A stretch of DNA of 64,000 nt from Cellulophaga sp. F20128 (GTDB lineage: Bacteria > Bacteroidota > Bacteroidia > Flavobacteriales > Flavobacteriaceae): positions 62,001 through 126,000 of the forward strand of contig NZ_JALKBA010000002.1 of NCBI RefSeq assembly GCF_023015805.1. Reading direction: 5' to 3'. The notes under the pieces are model-generated. The model made no database searches, had not been told where the DNA came from, and was given only the letters and a program-made list of their open reading frames with translations. The translations under genes were made by a program, and so were the position numbers. Each line of letters begins with the position of its first letter. The stretch's first letter is position 1. Positions 6,198 to 45,769 of this stretch are shown piece after piece.

Positions 6198-6210
6198 TGG
6201 TTCTAATTAA

Positions 6211-6280
6211 GAGGAAGGATTTGACTGATTGCAACCTCGTATACTGATTTCAGTAATACAAAAAATGCTAAAACAGAGTA
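6211..6280 (+). promoter_or_regulatory. SAM-II-like riboswitch (long-loop form) upstream of metK
   Basis: The segment carries the conserved SAM-II core in order. P1 is GAGG (6211-6214) pairing with CCTC (6235-6238), enclosing GATTTGACTGATTGCAA, and AAAAATGCTAAAAC follows downstream, corresponding to the AUG-GCUAAA strand of the pseudoknot. Between the two parts is an additional hairpin, GTATACTGA (6239-6247) with TCAGTAATAC (6250-6259), which makes this a long-loop form. It sits about 80 bases before metK, the SAM synthetase gene, the expected target of SAM feedback. After the core, GTTGATTTTTTTCAAC and a pyrimidine-rich stretch may belong to the expression platform. Confidence 0.8.
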
Positions 6281-6361
6281 TTCGTTGATTTTTTTCAACA
6301 CTTTCCCCTGTTTTTTGCAATCGGCAACACTTTTTCTCATTTACAATAAAAGTATAGTGTT

Positions 6362-7758: not shown

Positions 7759-7787
7759 CAACACAAAGTTCAAACACTTATTGAATA

Positions 7788-7897
7788 GTTATCAAGAAAG
7801 GCGGAGGGATTAGACCCTGTGAAACCTTAGCAACCCTTTATGCAAATAGAGAAGGTGCTAAATTCTACCACGTACTTTTGTACCATAGGCAGATAAC
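7788..7897 (+). promoter_or_regulatory. SAM-I riboswitch (S-box) upstream of metY
   Basis: The classic S-box core is present. P1 is GTTATC (7788-7793) pairing with GATAAC (7892-7897). Inside are AAGAAAGGCGGAGGGA, the kink-turn strand GACCCTGTGAAACC, TTAGCAACC and GGTGCTAAATTCTACC, plus a P4 hairpin closed by GTAC/GTAC around 7872-7882. A weak hairpin ATCCAA/TTGGAT (7908-7921) followed by pyrimidine-rich sequence may act as the expression platform. The downstream gene makes homocysteine, so SAM should repress it. Confidence 0.93.
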
Positions 7898-8033
7898 GAG
7901 ACAAACCATCCAATTTTGGATCGTGAATTTCTATTTTCTTTTTAACTTTTTAATTTATAAACCTCCGTGCACTGTCGGCATGATTTGGGTTTGGATTTTT
8001 ATTTTATCAATTTAACAATTAAAAGAAGAAATT

Positions 8034-32005: not shown

Positions 32006-32038
32006 CAGCTTAATTAGTTCATTACAAAACTGAAAATA

Positions 32039-32154
32039 GTTATCAAGAAAGGTGGAGGGATTAGACCCGCTGAAACCTTAGCAACCCTTTATCTAGTAAA
32101 GAAGGTGCTACATTCTACCAAAGTGCTCCATAGGTGGCTACTGCGGCAGATAAC
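32039..32154 (+). promoter_or_regulatory. SAM-I riboswitch (S-box) upstream of metH
   Basis: The core is nearly identical to that at 7788: P1 GTTATC (32039-32044) with GATAAC (32149-32154), AAGAAAGGTGGAGGGATTAG, ACCCGCTGAAACC, TTAGCAACC and GGTGCTACATTCTACC. A 240-base leader follows before the metH start, mostly filled by a structured repeat. SAM should shut off methionine synthase. Confidence 0.94.
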
Positions 32155-32209
32155 AACACAAATGAAAAGCAATTTTCTTTTCCTTTCCTTACTTGATATT
32201 TTTTAACTA

Positions 32210-40555: not shown

Positions 40556-41435
40556 TCTCCGTAAACAAACTTTCAAGATTTTTATTCTTTCTACTTAATT
40601 GAAGTGTTTTTAACTGATTGTCATGTGCAAAATCGAACACTACGGGTCGCATATCTTTTGTGGTGTCAAAAACAATTTCATAGACAAAACCTCCAGTATT
40701 TTTTGCCTGCACTACATGGGGTAATTTTTGCAATAGTTGTTCTTCAACCCGATAATCAAATTCCACCTCAATTACCTGTTCTTGATTTTCGCGCAAGTCG
40801 GTTAGTTTTTTATCAGCCACGATAACCCCTTTGTCTATTATGACTACACGATCACATACCGCTTCCACCTCTTTCATAATGTGTGTAGATAGTAAAATGG
40901 TTTTTTCTTTTCCGATGTCCTTGATCAGTTTCCGAATTTCCAACAACTGATTTGGGTCCAAACCCGTTGTAGGTTCGTCTAAAATTAAAACTTCTGGGTT
41001 GTGTAACAAAGCAGCGGCCAACCCAACCCGTTGCCTATAGCCTTTGGATAATTGTTCAATTTTTTTATGTGCCTCTGGCGTAAGCCCGGTTTGTGCTATA
41101 ACTTCTGCAATTCTTTCTTTGGGTACATTGTATACATTAGCATTAAAAGCTAAATACTCTTTTACATACATATCTAAATACAACGGATTGTGTTCTGGCA
41201 AATACCCAATGCTTTTTTGTACATTGATTTTGTCGGTAACATTGTAGTTATTTACTGCCGCTTCCCCGCTATCTGCCAATATATAAGTGGTAAGGATTTT
41301 CATTAAGGTAGATTTACCTGCTCCATTAGGGCCAAGAAAGCCAACAATTTCCCCTTTATTTATATTGAAAGACACCTTATTTAGTGCTTTTTGGGTTCCA
41401 AAATTTTTGCAAATATTCTCTACGGAAATAGACAT
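40545..41435 (-). CDS. gldA: Gliding-motility ABC transporter ATPase (GldA)
   Basis: This 296-residue ABC ATPase has Walker A GPNGAGKST (near 35-43), the signature LSKGYRQRV, Walker B VLILDEPTTGLD and switch His in LLSTHIM. The C-terminal ~75 residues (ending SRKNKNLESLFTEITG) match the GldA type. With the membrane proteins GldF and GldG, which are not in this window, it forms the transporter associated with gliding in flavobacteria. It is transcribed alone toward the serine hydrolase gene. Confidence 0.92.
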   Translation of the reverse strand: MSISVENICKNFGTQKALNKVSFNINKGEIVGFLGPNGAGKSTLMKILTTYILADSGEAAVNNYNVTDKINVQKSIGYLPEHNPLYLDMYVKEYLAFNANVYNVPKERIAEVIAQTGLTPEAHKKIEQLSKGYRQRVGLAAALLHNPEVLILDEPTTGLDPNQLLEIRKLIKDIGKEKTILLSTHIMKEVEAVCDRVVIIDKGVIVADKKLTDLRENQEQVIEVEFDYRVEEQLLQKLPHVVQAKNTGGFVYEIVFDTTKDMRPVVFDFAHDNQLKTLQLSRKNKNLESLFTEITG

Positions 41436-41643
41436 AGCTATAGATTTTCATCAAAAATAATGTAAATAATACAAAACTCAGTTGTAAAATTGTAATTCAA
41501 TAATTTGTTGGAAATACCGTCTTTCCCCATTGTTTCGTTAACAAAACCTTAACATTTTAAAAAAACGTCTTTTAATTTTTTGTTAAAAAAATACATAAGG
41601 ATATTAAATATTGTGTTAGGTTTAAAAAAAATGTAGGATAAAA

Positions 41644-41673
41644 TTTGTTTTTTAAATTTAATAACTACCTTAG
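41644..41673 (+). promoter_or_regulatory. Promoter of the pheA leader transcript
   Basis: TTTG (41644-41647), 18 bases, and TACCTTAG (41666-41673, one mismatch to TAnnTTTG) place the start near 41678, 15 bases before the leader peptide ATG. The rest of the 257-base gldA-leader gap shows only AT-rich sequence. Confidence 0.6.
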
Positions 41674-41692
41674 CCCCATAATTATAAGAATA

Positions 41693-41749
41693 ATGAATAC
41701 AAGATATTTCTGGAACGGTTTTTATTTTTACTTCTTTAAGAGAGGTTAG
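41693..41749 (+). CDS. Aromatic-rich leader peptide of the pheA operon
   Basis: ATG to TAG encodes 18 residues, MNTRYFWNGFYFYFFKRG. Nine of 18 are aromatic (five Phe, three Tyr, one Trp). It lies between a promoter and an intrinsic terminator directly upstream of prephenate dehydratase. The stop codon overlaps GGGACT (41749-41754), which can pair with AGTCCC (41789-41794), the left arm of the terminator. That is the geometry of ribosome-controlled attenuation: stalling on Phe/Tyr codons leaves GGGACT free to disrupt the terminator. It is too small for ordinary gene finders. Confidence 0.85.
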   Translation: MNTRYFWNGFYFYFFKRG

Positions 41750-41815
41750 GGACTGTTGTAATATTTTGTAATATAGATATAATAAAAAAGTCCCGTGAAA
41801 AACGGGACTTTTTTT
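41749..41815 (+). terminator. Attenuator (terminator and antiterminator) before pheA
   Basis: The terminator stem AAGTCCCGT / ACGGGACTT (41788-41796 with 41802-41810) has a five-base loop, is extended by A-T pairs, and is followed by a T run to 41815. The alternative pairing GGGACT (41749-41754) with AGTCCC (41789-41794) would break it. The stem ends 31 bases before the pheA ATG. Confidence 0.88.
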
Positions 41816-41845
41816 ATGCTTAAAAATAATAGGATAAGAATAGAA

Positions 41846-42673
41846 ATGGCATTAAGAATTGCAATACAAGGTATAAAGGGATCTAACCACCACCAAGTTG
41901 CCAATGAGTATTTTGGTAATAAGGTAGAATTGGTAGAATGTCTTTCTTTTGATGAGTTAATTCATCAACTTATGACGGGCTATGCCGATGAGGCTGTTAT
42001 GGCTATAGAAAATTCCATCGCAGGTTCTATCATACCTAATTATGCTTTGGTATATAATAATAACCTGCATATTATTGGAGAGCATTACCTAAATATTCAT
42101 CATCATTTGATGGCTTTGGCGGGGCAGAAAATTGAAGACATTCAAGAAGTGCATTCGCACCCCATGGCTTTGCTTCAATGCAAAGAATTTTTAAGAAGTC
42201 ACGCTCATATAAAATTGGTAGAATCTGTAGATACGGCAGAAACAGCACAGCGGATTCAAAAAAACAACTTAAAAGGGATAGCGGCAATAGCTCCTAAAGT
42301 AGCGTCAGAATTATATAGCCTGGAAGTTTTAGCTTCAGAAATACAAACGATAAGTAATAATTCTACCCGTTTTATTGTGCTTTCAAAGGAAGATAGAACA
42401 ACTCAGGAAACAGCAATTAATAAAGCTTCTTTACGCTTTGTTTTGGATCATAAACGCGGCAGTTTGGCAGCGGTATTAAATGTGGTAAGCGACTGTAACT
42501 TAAACTTAACCAAAGTGCAATCCTTGCCTGTTATAGAACGACCTTGGAAATATTCATTTTTTGTGGATGTTACTTTTGATAAATATTCGCATTACGAAAA
42601 AGCAAAGGCTCTGTTAGAAATAATGGCAGAAGAATTTAAAGTATTAGGAGAATATAAAAACGCTAGAGTATGA
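41846..42673 (+). CDS. pheA: Prephenate dehydratase (PheA)
   Basis: This 275-residue enzyme converts prephenate to phenylpyruvate, the branch step to phenylalanine. The dehydratase domain has LRIAIQGIKGSNHHQVANEY, AVMAIENSIAGSI and the NSTRFIVL motif. A C-terminal ACT domain (about 195-275, LDHKRGSLAAVLNVVSDCNL, VIERPWKYSFFVD) should bind phenylalanine for feedback. There is no chorismate mutase domain; that is fused to the DAHP synthase of this operon. I start at the ATG before ALRIAIQG; earlier in-frame starts fall inside the attenuator hairpin. It overlaps the next gene by four bases. Confidence 0.95.
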   Translation: MALRIAIQGIKGSNHHQVANEYFGNKVELVECLSFDELIHQLMTGYADEAVMAIENSIAGSIIPNYALVYNNNLHIIGEHYLNIHHHLMALAGQKIEDIQEVHSHPMALLQCKEFLRSHAHIKLVESVDTAETAQRIQKNNLKGIAAIAPKVASELYSLEVLASEIQTISNNSTRFIVLSKEDRTTQETAINKASLRFVLDHKRGSLAAVLNVVSDCNLNLTKVQSLPVIERPWKYSFFVDVTFDKYSHYEKAKALLEIMAEEFKVLGEYKNARV

Positions 42674-43815
42674 AAACAGCTGATAGATTAGCCCATATTC
42701 AGGAGTACTATTTTTCTAAAAAATTGAGAGAAGTACGTGGATTAATGGCAGAAGGTAGACCCGTAATTAATATGGGTATCGGTAGTCCAGATTTGGAGCC
42801 TTCCGCTAGTGTTGTTGCTGCCATAAAAAATGCGGTTGATGATGCAGGTGCTCACCAATATCAAAGTTATCAAGGTTTGCCAGAGCTAAGAGCGGGCATT
42901 GCCAATTTTTATAAGACTAATTTTCAGGTAAGTGTAAATCCAGAGGATGAAATTTTGCCGTTGATGGGTTCTAAGGAAGGGATTCTTCATATTAGTATGG
43001 CTTTTTTAAACGAAGGAGATGAGGCTTTAATTCCAAATCCTGGATACCCAACCTATACTTCTGTAACTAATTTAGTAGGTGCCGTACCTAAATACTATGA
43101 TTTAGTAGGTGAAAACCAATGGTTTCCAGATTTGGAAGCATTAGGGAAACAAGATTTATCTAAGGTTAAAATAATGTGGGTATGTTACCCTCACATGCCA
43201 ACAGGGGCAACAGCTACAACAACACAGTTAGCTGCCTTGGTGCAATTTGCAAAAAGAAACAACATATTATTGGTGAACGATAATCCATACAGTTTTGTTT
43301 TAAATGATGAGCCAAAAAGCATTTTAAGTATTGAAGGAGCAAAAGAATGTACCTTGGAATTAAACTCTTTGAGTAAGACCTTTAATATGGCCGGATGGCG
43401 TGTGGGCATGGTGTTGGGTAGTAGTGACCATATCACAGCGGTGTTAAAAGTGAAAAGCAATATGGATTCGGGTATGTTCTACGGCATACAAAAAGGAGCC
43501 ATTGCAGCCTTGCAGAGTAGTAAGCAGTGGTTTCAAGATTTAAACAAGGTGTACACAGCTCGTAGGGAATTAATTTTTCAATTAGCAGATAAATTAAATT
43601 GTAGCTATGACAAAAATGCTGTTGGCATGTTTGTTTGGGCTAAATTACCTGAAGATAGTGTTTCTTCAGAAAAATTTATAGATGCCATTTTGTACGATAA
43701 AAATATTTTTTTAACCCCAGGAACCATTTTTGGTAGTAATGGAGAAGGTTATATTCGATTTTCACTCTGTGTAACTGAGGAAAAAATAAAAGAAGCAATT
43801 AAGAGACTAGGGTAG
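42670..43815 (+). CDS. PLP-dependent class I/II aminotransferase (aromatic amino acid type likely)
   Basis: This 381-residue fold-type I aminotransferase shows GIGSPDLEPSASVVAAIKNA, the substrate/PLP region YQSYQGLPELR, VNDNPYSFV with the Asp that contacts the PLP nitrogen, and the PLP lysine in ELNSLSKTFNMAGWRVGM near 238. It sits between pheA and tyrA, so the probable job is transamination of phenylpyruvate and hydroxyphenylpyruvate. The family also includes aspartate, methionine and LL-diaminopimelate aminotransferases, so specificity is inferred. It overlaps pheA by ATGA and is two bases from tyrA. Confidence 0.9.
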   Translation: MKTADRLAHIQEYYFSKKLREVRGLMAEGRPVINMGIGSPDLEPSASVVAAIKNAVDDAGAHQYQSYQGLPELRAGIANFYKTNFQVSVNPEDEILPLMGSKEGILHISMAFLNEGDEALIPNPGYPTYTSVTNLVGAVPKYYDLVGENQWFPDLEALGKQDLSKVKIMWVCYPHMPTGATATTTQLAALVQFAKRNNILLVNDNPYSFVLNDEPKSILSIEGAKECTLELNSLSKTFNMAGWRVGMVLGSSDHITAVLKVKSNMDSGMFYGIQKGAIAALQSSKQWFQDLNKVYTARRELIFQLADKLNCSYDKNAVGMFVWAKLPEDSVSSEKFIDAILYDKNIFLTPGTIFGSNGEGYIRFSLCVTEEKIKEAIKRLG

Positions 43816-43817
43816 GG

Positions 43818-44678
43818 ATGAATGTATTTGTAATTGGCATAGGATTAATAGGAGGCTCAATGGCCAAGGATATCAAAAGATTTAATCCTGCTGCTAAAAT
43901 ATATGGTGTGGATATTAATGAGGCGCATGTAGATGAAGCACTTGCCTTAGGTCTTATTGATGAGAAAGCTTCGTATGCAGATTTAGCAATTGCCGATATT
44001 GTTATTGTAAGTATCCCAGTAGATGTGTTGGTGCGCGAGTTGCCTATAATTTTAGATGCGGTTCATGATAATGCCATAGTTATAGACGCCGGATCTACAA
44101 AGGCATTGCTCTGTAAAGTAGTTGATAATCATGTAAAAAGAAGAAATTTTTTAGCCTGTCATCCTATAGCTGGAACCGAATTCTCTGGCCCCTCTGCTGC
44201 GATTGAAAATTTGTTTGAAGGCAAAACAAATATTATATGTGAGGTAGAAAAAACGGCTTTTAAATTACAAGAAAAGGCTTTGGATCTTTTTCAGAAAATG
44301 GGAATGCGAATTCGGTATATGAATGCGGAGGCGCATGATAAACACATTGCTTACGTTTCTCATTTATCACATATTAGTTCCTTCATGCTCGGGAAAACAG
44401 TGATTGAAAAGGAGAAAAATGAACGCGATATTTTTGATATGGCCGGTAGTGGATTTGAAAGTACAGTGCGATTGGCTAAAAGTTCACCCGCTATGTGGAC
44501 ACCAATTTTTGAACAGAACAAAGAAAATGTTTTAGAAACATTAGAAGAATATATACAAAATTTAGAAGCCTTTAAGCAAATGATTGTTGAGGACAATTTT
44601 AAAGGCATTTATAGTGAAATGCGTGAAGCAAATAAAATAAAAGAAATATTAAACGGAATCCCTCAGAATAAAAACTAA
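43818..44678 (+). CDS. tyrA: Prephenate dehydrogenase (TyrA)
   Basis: This 286-residue enzyme oxidises prephenate to hydroxyphenylpyruvate for tyrosine. The NAD fold VFVIGIGLIGGSMAKDIKR is followed by IVIVSIPVDVL, IDAGSTKALLC, the substrate motif CHPIAGTEFSGP and HDKHIAYVSHLSHISSF with the catalytic His. No ACT domain is present, so control is likely through the operon attenuator or the DAHP synthase. It is tightly packed between the aminotransferase and DAHP synthase genes. Confidence 0.95.
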   Translation: MNVFVIGIGLIGGSMAKDIKRFNPAAKIYGVDINEAHVDEALALGLIDEKASYADLAIADIVIVSIPVDVLVRELPIILDAVHDNAIVIDAGSTKALLCKVVDNHVKRRNFLACHPIAGTEFSGPSAAIENLFEGKTNIICEVEKTAFKLQEKALDLFQKMGMRIRYMNAEAHDKHIAYVSHLSHISSFMLGKTVIEKEKNERDIFDMAGSGFESTVRLAKSSPAMWTPIFEQNKENVLETLEEYIQNLEAFKQMIVEDNFKGIYSEMREANKIKEILNGIPQNKN

Positions 44679-44686
44679 ATAGTAAA

Positions 44687-45769
44687 ATGGAAAATTCAAA
44701 ACAAATGAGAACTTGGTTGGACGATATGAAATTGGACCATCCGTTAGTAATTGCAGGACCTTGTAGTGCTGAAACAGAAGAGCAAGTATTAAAAATTGCA
44801 CATCAACTAAAAGATACAGATGTAAACTATTACCGTGCAGGTATTTGGAAACCACGTACAAGACCAGGAAATTTTGAAGGCGTTGGCGCTTTAGGATTAA
44901 AATGGTTAAAAAAGGTAAAAGAAGAAACTGGATTAAAGACAGCAACAGAAGTAGCAAACAGAGCACACGTAGAATTAGCGTTGGAAAATGACGTAGATTT
45001 ATTGTGGATTGGTGCTAGATCTACTGTAAGTCCGTTTATCATGCAAGAAATTGCAGATGCCTTGGAAGGTACAGATAAAATTGTTTTGGTAAAGAATCCT
45101 ATAAACCCAGATTTATCATTGTGGTTGGGTGGTATTGAGCGTTTGTATACAGCAGGTATTAAAAACTTAGGTGCTATTCATAGAGGTTTTTCAACCTATG
45201 AAAAAACAAAATATAGAAACATTCCAGAGTGGCAATTGGCTATTGAGTTTCAAAACAAATTCCCTGATTTACCTTTAATTAGTGATCCTTCGCATATTAC
45301 AGGAAACAGAGATATGATTTTTGATGTTTCACAAACAGCTTTAGATCTTAATTTTGATGGCTTAATGATAGAAACTCATTTTGATCCTGATAATGCATGG
45401 AGTGATGCTGCACAGCAAGTAACACCAGACAAGTTAGTGCAAATTATGCGCGATTTAAAAATTAGAAAAGAGTCTGATCCAGAAGCAGAATACAATAAAG
45501 AGTTGAGTAATTTAAGAGCTCAAATTGATGTTATTGATTCTCAGTTGATTGATACAATGGGAAAAAGAATGAAAATTTCTGATGGTATTGGTGCTTTAAA
45601 AAAGCAAAAGAATGTTGCAGTGCTTCAATCTACCAGGTGGAACCAGATTTTAGGCGCTATGATTCTTGAAGGGGAATCTAAAGGATTAAGTGAAGAGTTT
45701 GTTTTAAAAATGTTTAAGGCAATACACCAAGAGTCTATAAATCACCAGGAAAAAATAGTAAACGGATAA
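44687..45769 (+). CDS. Bifunctional DAHP synthase / chorismate mutase
   Basis: This 360-residue enzyme has type Iβ (KDO8P-like) DAHP synthase at about 1-262 (PLVIAGPCSAETEEQV, YYRAGIWKPRTRPGNFEG, LWIGARSTVSPF, DPSHITGNRDM, GLMIETHFDPDNAWSDA). A C-terminal AroQ chorismate mutase spans about 268-355 (LRAQIDVIDSQLIDTMGKRM). It makes the first intermediate of the shikimate pathway and converts chorismate to prephenate, the substrate of PheA and TyrA encoded upstream. The mutase part usually acts as an allosteric sensor for the synthase. A terminator ends the operon 10 bases later. Confidence 0.95.
   Translation: MENSKQMRTWLDDMKLDHPLVIAGPCSAETEEQVLKIAHQLKDTDVNYYRAGIWKPRTRPGNFEGVGALGLKWLKKVKEETGLKTATEVANRAHVELALENDVDLLWIGARSTVSPFIMQEIADALEGTDKIVLVKNPINPDLSLWLGGIERLYTAGIKNLGAIHRGFSTYEKTKYRNIPEWQLAIEFQNKFPDLPLISDPSHITGNRDMIFDVSQTALDLNFDGLMIETHFDPDNAWSDAAQQVTPDKLVQIMRDLKIRKESDPEAEYNKELSNLRAQIDVIDSQLIDTMGKRMKISDGIGALKKQKNVAVLQSTRWNQILGAMILEGESKGLSEEFVLKMFKAIHQESINHQEKIVNG

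Follow-up and report, generated by a model that had tools for sequence, protein, structure and literature searches.

How is an operon that serves both the phenylalanine and the tyrosine branch of aromatic biosynthesis controlled in a genus such as Cellulophaga, a member of a phylum in which ribosomes initiate without Shine-Dalgarno sequences? The question is raised by a 64,000-nucleotide stretch of the Cellulophaga sp. F20128 genome (hereafter, the window), in which four plus-strand genes follow a short frame rich in aromatic codons. Pfam searches confirmed the gene order given in the preliminary description of this DNA: pheA, encoding prephenate dehydratase (41846–42673, PF00800; the ACT domain of the product fell below the Pfam cut-off), a class I/II aminotransferase gene (42670–43815, PF00155), tyrA, encoding prephenate dehydrogenase (43818–44678, PF02153/PF20463), and a DAHP synthase gene (44687–45769, PF00793/PF01817), whose product is fused to chorismate mutase. 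The window PheA is 86–88% identical to its counterparts in three named Cellulophaga loci (L002–L004). The gene upstream of the leader is divergent, lying on the minus strand with its ATG at 41435.

The leader peptide frame, MNTRYFWNGFYFYFFKRG, occupies positions 41693–41749 of the plus strand, with ATG at 41693–41695 and TAG at 41747–41749, and has the 18 codons and nine aromatic residues (five Phe, three Tyr, one Trp) originally attributed to it. Its aromatic density was matched by none of 2000 dinucleotide shuffles of 41640–41845 and was reached in only one of 1240 tiles covering both strands of the window, namely, the leader itself. A DNA pattern for the Phe/Tyr run, with two mismatches allowed, matched the window 27 times (6.7 expected), and the only exact match was at 41720–41737. 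The Bacteroidota-type promoter claimed ahead of the leader corresponds to a promoter-like site of the −33/−7 type, TTG-N18-TACCTTAG, at 41645–41673 of the plus strand; the −7 consensus for such promoters, TAnnTTTG, is given in PMC9723704. Of 52 leaders, 25 are preceded by the strict pattern TTG-N17..21-TAnnTTnG, which occurs in 1.0% of shuffles; it was not found ahead of the other 27.

Between the leader and pheA, an intrinsic terminator with a T-run spans 41784–41816 (plus strand). The T's occupy 41809–41816, and the hairpin as trimmed ends at 41814, 31 bases before the pheA ATG, as first reported. The leader RNA fold has a z-score of −7.08, and none of 200 shuffles was as stable. Four segments can be defined, all on the plus strand. 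Segment 1 (41714–41724) lies inside the leader and, in the minimum-energy fold without a ribosome, pairs with 41747–41757. Segment 2, GGGACT (41749–41754), the 5′ arm of the antiterminator, shares its first base with the last base of the leader stop codon; segment 3, AGTCCC (41789–41794), is common to the antiterminator and the terminator. Both are defined by the pairing and covariation tests described below, and segment 2 also by footprint modelling. Segment 4, GGGACT (41804–41809), the 3′ arm of the terminator, is defined by sequence and by the covariation count. The complementarity of segment 2 to the left arm of the terminator, noted in the preliminary description, is evident from the sequence.

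We conclude with high confidence, on the basis of computation, that the pheA leader is a ribosome-mediated transcription attenuator sensing Phe and Tyr. A leader frame containing codons for the operon products, an intrinsic terminator, and a mutually exclusive antiterminator were all found computationally, with an assumed size of the ribosome footprint. Transcription would begin some 15 bases upstream of the leader ATG, as the promoter-like site suggests, with a ribosome translating the leader behind RNA polymerase. When charged tRNA-Phe or tRNA-Tyr (possibly also tRNA-Trp) is short, the ribosome would stall at an aromatic codon with its leading edge just short of GGGACT at 41749–41754. The free GGGACT could then pair with AGTCCC at 41789–41794 once the latter is made, and the resulting antiterminator would delay or prevent terminator formation, allowing the operon to be transcribed. 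With a good supply of charged aromatic tRNAs, the ribosome would reach the Lys-Arg-Gly-stop end of the frame and cover GGGACT, so that the terminator at 41784–41816 would form ahead of pheA. Since the leader contains both Phe and Tyr codons, a shortage of either amino acid would allow transcription of an operon with roles in both branches. Charged-tRNA sensing, transcription–translation coupling, and the size of the read-through change are parts of the scheme that we infer.

The preliminary description had proposed a check in close relatives, with loss of the aromatic codons or of the GGGACT/AGTCCC pairing counting against attenuation. At the level of sequence, the leader passes this check: both are conserved, and the pairing covaries. 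Around Cellulophaga, segment 2 and the left terminator arm read GGGACT/AGTCCC, and compensatory changes are seen in close relatives: GGAACT/AGTTCC in L073 and AGGACT/AGTCCT in L009 and L055. Segment 2/3 pairs of other lineages are GGATTGT/ACAATCC or GAGACTTTGTA/TATAAAGTCTC; the largest sampled genus (g10) has AGGATTGT/ACAATCCT or GGGATTGT/ACAATCCC, genus g11 has GAGACTTTGTAT/ATATAAAGTCTC or GAGGCTTTGTA/TATAAAGCCTC, and CGAGGC/GTCTCG and AAGGCT/AGCCTT occur elsewhere. Many segment 2/3 changes between lineages yield G-U pairs rather than double changes. When terminator arms were dealt among 51 genera, the own arm scored 18.02 compared with 14.16 (sd 0.40) for dealt arms, and none of 2000 deals was as good. 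Taken genus by genus, 39 of the 51 scored above their shuffles at p 0.05, and a foreign arm paired as well as the own arm in 24% of cases on average.

Relatedness inflates such arm-dealing tests, and counts made on an alignment of 19 sequences therefore matter as well. In the aligned antiterminator, 96.2% of cells were paired, a level reached in eight of 500 shuffles; when the arms were slid, at most 57.1% were paired. The covariation score was matched in none of 500 shuffles. The shuffle controls were weak for the two antiterminator pairs changed on both sides (reached in 26 of 500 shuffles) and for the pair types (181 of 500). The aligned terminator was 100% paired and had four pairs changed on both sides, each value being reached in none of 500 shuffles. 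Among 40 distinct window-type pairs, representing 106 leaders, 15 cells were changed on both sides compared with 6.4 when arms were dealt (1 of 1000 deals), and 84.4% of cells were paired compared with 81.2% (2 of 1000). Counting covariation in one fixed register across all lineages gave a weak signal (60.4% paired, 57.8% when dealt; 24 of 500); the pairing register differs between lineages.

Toeprints with E. coli ribosomes place the footprint edges at −15 and +11 relative to the A-site. We modelled the ribosome at each leader codon with two assumed footprints, −15 to +11 and −13 to +12. Before segment 4 is made, the predicted antiterminator probability with the first footprint was 0.86–0.99 at codons 1–15 and at most 0.03 from codon 16 onward; with the second, it was 0.91–0.99 at codons 1–15, and 0.00 afterwards. 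With both, the modelled switch was from 0.93–0.98 at Phe15 to 0.00–0.03 at Lys16, and codon 16 is the first codon beyond the last aromatic codon of the window leader. The opposite outcomes proposed earlier for stalled and non-stalled ribosomes were thus reproduced in the model. The minimum-energy fold contains the segment 1:2 hairpin, and without a ribosome, before segment 4, the probability of 2:3 pairing was 0.48. With all segments made, the equilibrium probability of the terminator was 0.99–1.00 at every ribosome position. Since the terminator always wins at equilibrium, the switch must be kinetic, with timing deciding the outcome.

The same modelling was applied to 52 leaders, i.e., 51 genus representatives and the window. 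With the ribosome at the last aromatic codon, 46 of them had an antiterminator probability of one half or more. The probability fell below that level in 49 leaders, always within three codons past the last aromatic one and in 42 cases after one or two codons. Six of the 52 were already under one half when the last aromatic codon occupied the A-site, and three of these six show no drop. In five, a ribosome parked at a far-downstream stop codon would, according to the model, leave segment 2 free. The spacing itself points the same way. Among 51 genera, 46 have an antiterminator helix that starts 7–12 nucleotides past the last aromatic codon, compared with 22.7% in shuffles; the search began at that codon, so that negative offsets were impossible and offsets up to 31 possible. 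In the window, as in many relatives, 11 bases separate the end of the last aromatic codon from GGGACT.

In the nearest relatives, the leader peptide is nearly constant. The leader has 23 codons in 69 of the 80 nearest loci (the best 80 of 199 confirmed), where it typically reads M-T-x-x-YFWNGFYFYFFFKRGxGLL-stop, with the frame continuing through GGGACTG, and in 78 of these 80 loci the stop codon lies 3′ of segment 2. A TAG that ends the frame at GGGACT was seen in the window, L005, and L187, and the window leader has one Phe codon fewer than those of L002–L004. The initial reading as a textbook-like attenuator is supported; the shorter, 18-codon frame with its early TAG represents a local variant. 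In distant genera, inspection by eye indicated that the aromatic run is kept and the rest of the peptide differs, and both the order of the aromatic block and its flanks vary between genera (e.g., MSNNRFYFSNTYYFFFRK, MLHNNFTRFYFYFYFFSKSRDFVLCC, and MTVFYTYFNNWFYFFFSKRNEALYV). The leaders of the 51 genus representatives, which were picked for aromatic density, add up to 1188 residues, of which 269 are Phe, 170 Tyr, and 31 Trp; every one has both Phe and Tyr codons, and 31 have Trp codons.

In total, 242 regions upstream of pheA were inspected, including the window, with some species present in two sets. Leaders of L098, L181, L209, L240, and L245 were read by eye, the automatic choice being wrong for L098 and missing for the others. 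A leader followed by a terminator was detected in all 81 regions comprising the window and the best 80 of 199 confirmed loci. A second set took in 108 regions, of which 100 came from the 277 genomes found PheA-positive in a search of the order and eight from genomes of the same genus; the detector found the device in 105, or 106 counting L181, and L159 (G395) and L178 (G025) were without it. In these two sets, the detector gave one false positive on 189 reverse strands and four on 189 shuffled sequences. Together with the 20 and 18 regions considered next, the second set covers 138 of the 277 PheA-positive genomes of the order, the window's own genome aside; the order sample leaves out 19 genomes of g10 as near-duplicates.

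Two families of the order depart from this picture. None of the 19 regions from the 0.59–0.64 Mb genomes of family f16 has the device as judged, though a pheA homologue is kept; detector matches in three of them (L190, L204, and L206) were judged to be due to chance, since their frames are poor in aromatic codons and lack any long aromatic stretch. From their size, we take these genomes (L190–L208) to be, probably, those of cockroach endosymbionts (Blattabacterium); if so, the absence of the device before pheA at ca. 0.6 Mb would fit a nutritional endosymbiont that has lost feedback on Phe/Tyr supply. In a larger f16 genome (G269, 1.3 Mb), the device is retained at L181; it is also present, by eye, at L209, from another family analysed alongside the small genomes. 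At L181, the half of the element from segment 2 to the hairpin is tandemly duplicated, and TGTG, not a T-run, follows the first hairpin. In family f5, the device was present in one of 18 regions and judged absent in 17 despite a pheA homologue. Outside the order, 60 genomes were searched, and 15 regions (17 matches minus the window's genome and G016) were analysed; the detector found the device in nine, or 11 counting L240 and L245, and L238, L242, L244, and L248 were without it.

Leaders of other composition precede other amino acid genes in the same genome. The trpE leader (L211, 1297–1410) scores 75.5 bits with RF01692, above its gathering threshold, and contains WWW. A candidate His-run leader, MRNNNTHHHFLTCYQAS, was recognised by eye before hisG (L210), and a candidate Ile/Val/Leu leader, MKNKFNIIQVILTTFGG, lies 330–276 bases upstream of ilvD (L213). 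A terminator-like hairpin follows each of the three. A covariance model of the pheA leader, R1, finds one strong copy in its own genome (128.1 bits); the next match (29.8 bits) is, by eye, a plain terminator. In a family search of 60 genomes, 54 had R1 matches at E ≤ 0.01, the weak ones spanning the terminator part only. Ten stretches around chosen matches included pheA leaders (L259 and L264), a leader before a hydroxylase gene (L255), and an ilvD-like locus (L257); six (L256, L258, and L260–L263) had no recognised leader. At L257 (G482), the match precedes an ilvD-like gene, named by eye, and the small frame, MNKSTLKIIFNVIVVIDAGRHGMV, is rich in Ile and Val.

The hydroxylase locus L255 (192–335), from genome G206, has a Tyr-run leader, MKNLNNTYYYYPILTRRIGQ, and a terminator before a Biopterin_H (PF00351) gene; G206 had no PheA match in the order search. 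A further search of 119 genomes gave six Biopterin_H matches at E ≤ 1e-20, all of which were read. A run of four to five Tyr codons and a terminator precede the gene at four of the six, in three genera: L265 (MSRQNTYYYYYFTPLHKE), L266 (MKRKNTYYYYLNSTP), L268 (MNNNCTYYYYYTDPNWN), and L269, read by eye and starting with GTG, whose genome (G048) also has a PheA match. L267 and L270 do not show this combination. With L255 included, Tyr-run leaders with terminators are present at five of seven Biopterin_H loci read. In the four Tyr-run loci computed, L255 among them, antiterminator helices have 5–8 pairs and start 9–16 bases past the last Tyr codon, a looser spacing than at pheA. Judging by their family, the Biopterin_H enzymes at these loci should make Tyr from Phe.

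Other functions of the leader have to be weighed against attenuation by codon supply. Were the ribosome stalled by a specific nascent peptide sequence, the peptide should matter rather than its codons, and the peptide is indeed almost constant among close relatives (around YFWNGFYFYFFFKRG). Across genera, however, the aromatic block persists while its order and flanks change; in this genome, leaders vary in composition with the product of the operon (Trp, His, Ile/Val/Leu), and Tyr runs precede aromatic-hydroxylase genes in others. Such arrest therefore has only a slim chance of being correct. An RNA that senses its ligand or tRNA directly, as a riboswitch or a T-box, with the small frame incidental, would likewise present a structured 5′ region ending in a terminator. 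However, nothing in Rfam scores at or above its gathering threshold at this site (the T-box model, RF00230, gives 10.1 of 93 bits), and the spacing runs from the last aromatic codon and fits a ribosome footprint, making direct sensing very improbable. The short conserved frame could also encode a microprotein followed by an unrelated constitutive terminator. We give this next to no credence, because the alternative pairing covaries with the terminator arm; moreover, since the upstream gene is divergent, the terminator at 41784–41816 does not serve that gene.

Attenuation through a leader peptide is the mechanism of the enterobacterial pheA, trp, his, and ilv attenuators (RF01859 Phe_leader and RF00513 Trp_leader). 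The Cellulophaga pheA leader resembles these in having control codons, mutually exclusive antiterminator and terminator, and a terminator just 5′ of the first gene. Unlike them, it mixes Phe and Tyr (and Trp) codons and precedes genes of both the Phe and Tyr branches, and it is not expected to have a Shine-Dalgarno sequence, a property of the phylum according to the abstract of PMC6847099. It scores 25.4 bits with RF01859 (gathering threshold, 55) and by this score is not a member of that family. The Bacteroid-trp leader, RF01692, which appears in Table 1 of PMC2864571 (excerpt), is from the same phylum and also combines a leader peptide with a terminator. With this model, the pheA leader obtains 23.1 bits, below the gathering threshold of 49, unlike the trpE leader of the same genome. 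In the latter, the control codons are a Trp run, and segment 2 appears by eye to pair with the loop and right arm of the hairpin.

The statement in the preliminary description that such leaders are rarely reported for Bacteroidota was too strong, given RF01692, PMC9723704, and Table 7 of PMC1173090. PMC9723704 describes, for Flavobacterium psychrophilum, a structured 5′ element ahead of pheA that is conserved in other genera of Flavobacteriaceae, and reports "strong clues" of leader peptide attenuation ahead of amino acid operons; the same gene and family being involved, that element is probably the one analysed here. Table 7 of PMC1173090, as extracted, lists a putative attenuator, from the Merino website, before the Bacteroides thetaiotaomicron operon pheA > hisHb > aroA-aroQ > tyrA. 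That operon has the same gene set in another order, and the entry is a database prediction with no leader peptide described in the extract. Small ORFs of B. thetaiotaomicron reminiscent of attenuation leaders are mentioned in the excerpt of PMC7366714; those of PMC4833913 and PMC6847099 contain nothing on a pheA leader. Among the listed titles and abstracts of open-licence papers, none described how a pheA leader of this kind works in Bacteroidota or reported Tyr-run leaders ahead of phenylalanine hydroxylase genes. Thus, the kind of attenuator is already known, and the pheA leader is partly anticipated in print; the conservation and footprint-spacing evidence and the Tyr-run leaders before aromatic-hydroxylase genes are added here.

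Taken jointly, the results make it reasonably probable that leader peptide attenuation is an old, class-wide layer in the control of aromatic metabolism in Bacteroidia. It would use the last control codon as the point from which the ribosome's 3′ footprint is measured, and would have been re-tuned by codon replacement, with mixed Phe/Tyr(/Trp) codons at pheA-tyrA and four to five Tyr codons at biopterin-dependent aromatic hydroxylases of the phenylalanine type. Codon re-tuning and its implication for coupling in the phylum is the more novel part. If attenuation is class-wide, close transcription–translation coupling would be needed in a phylum without Shine-Dalgarno initiation; and as the mechanism needs a ribosome close behind RNA polymerase, such leaders could provide a simple and well-conserved read-out of coupling in Bacteroidota. 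The match between codon composition and operon product, Tyr-run hydroxylase leaders included, amounts to a natural codon-swap experiment, and the pheA leader could serve as a ready-made Phe/Tyr sensor in a phylum that is common in the gut, in the sea, and in fresh water.

At a permissive Rfam threshold, all matches in the pheA leader were below gathering. The top one by E-value was a minus-strand match to a Brucella sRNA; it reflects the terminator hairpin read in reverse and was rejected. Elsewhere in the window, one SAM-II and two SAM riboswitches score above gathering (6205–6281, 7786–7899, and 32037–32156).
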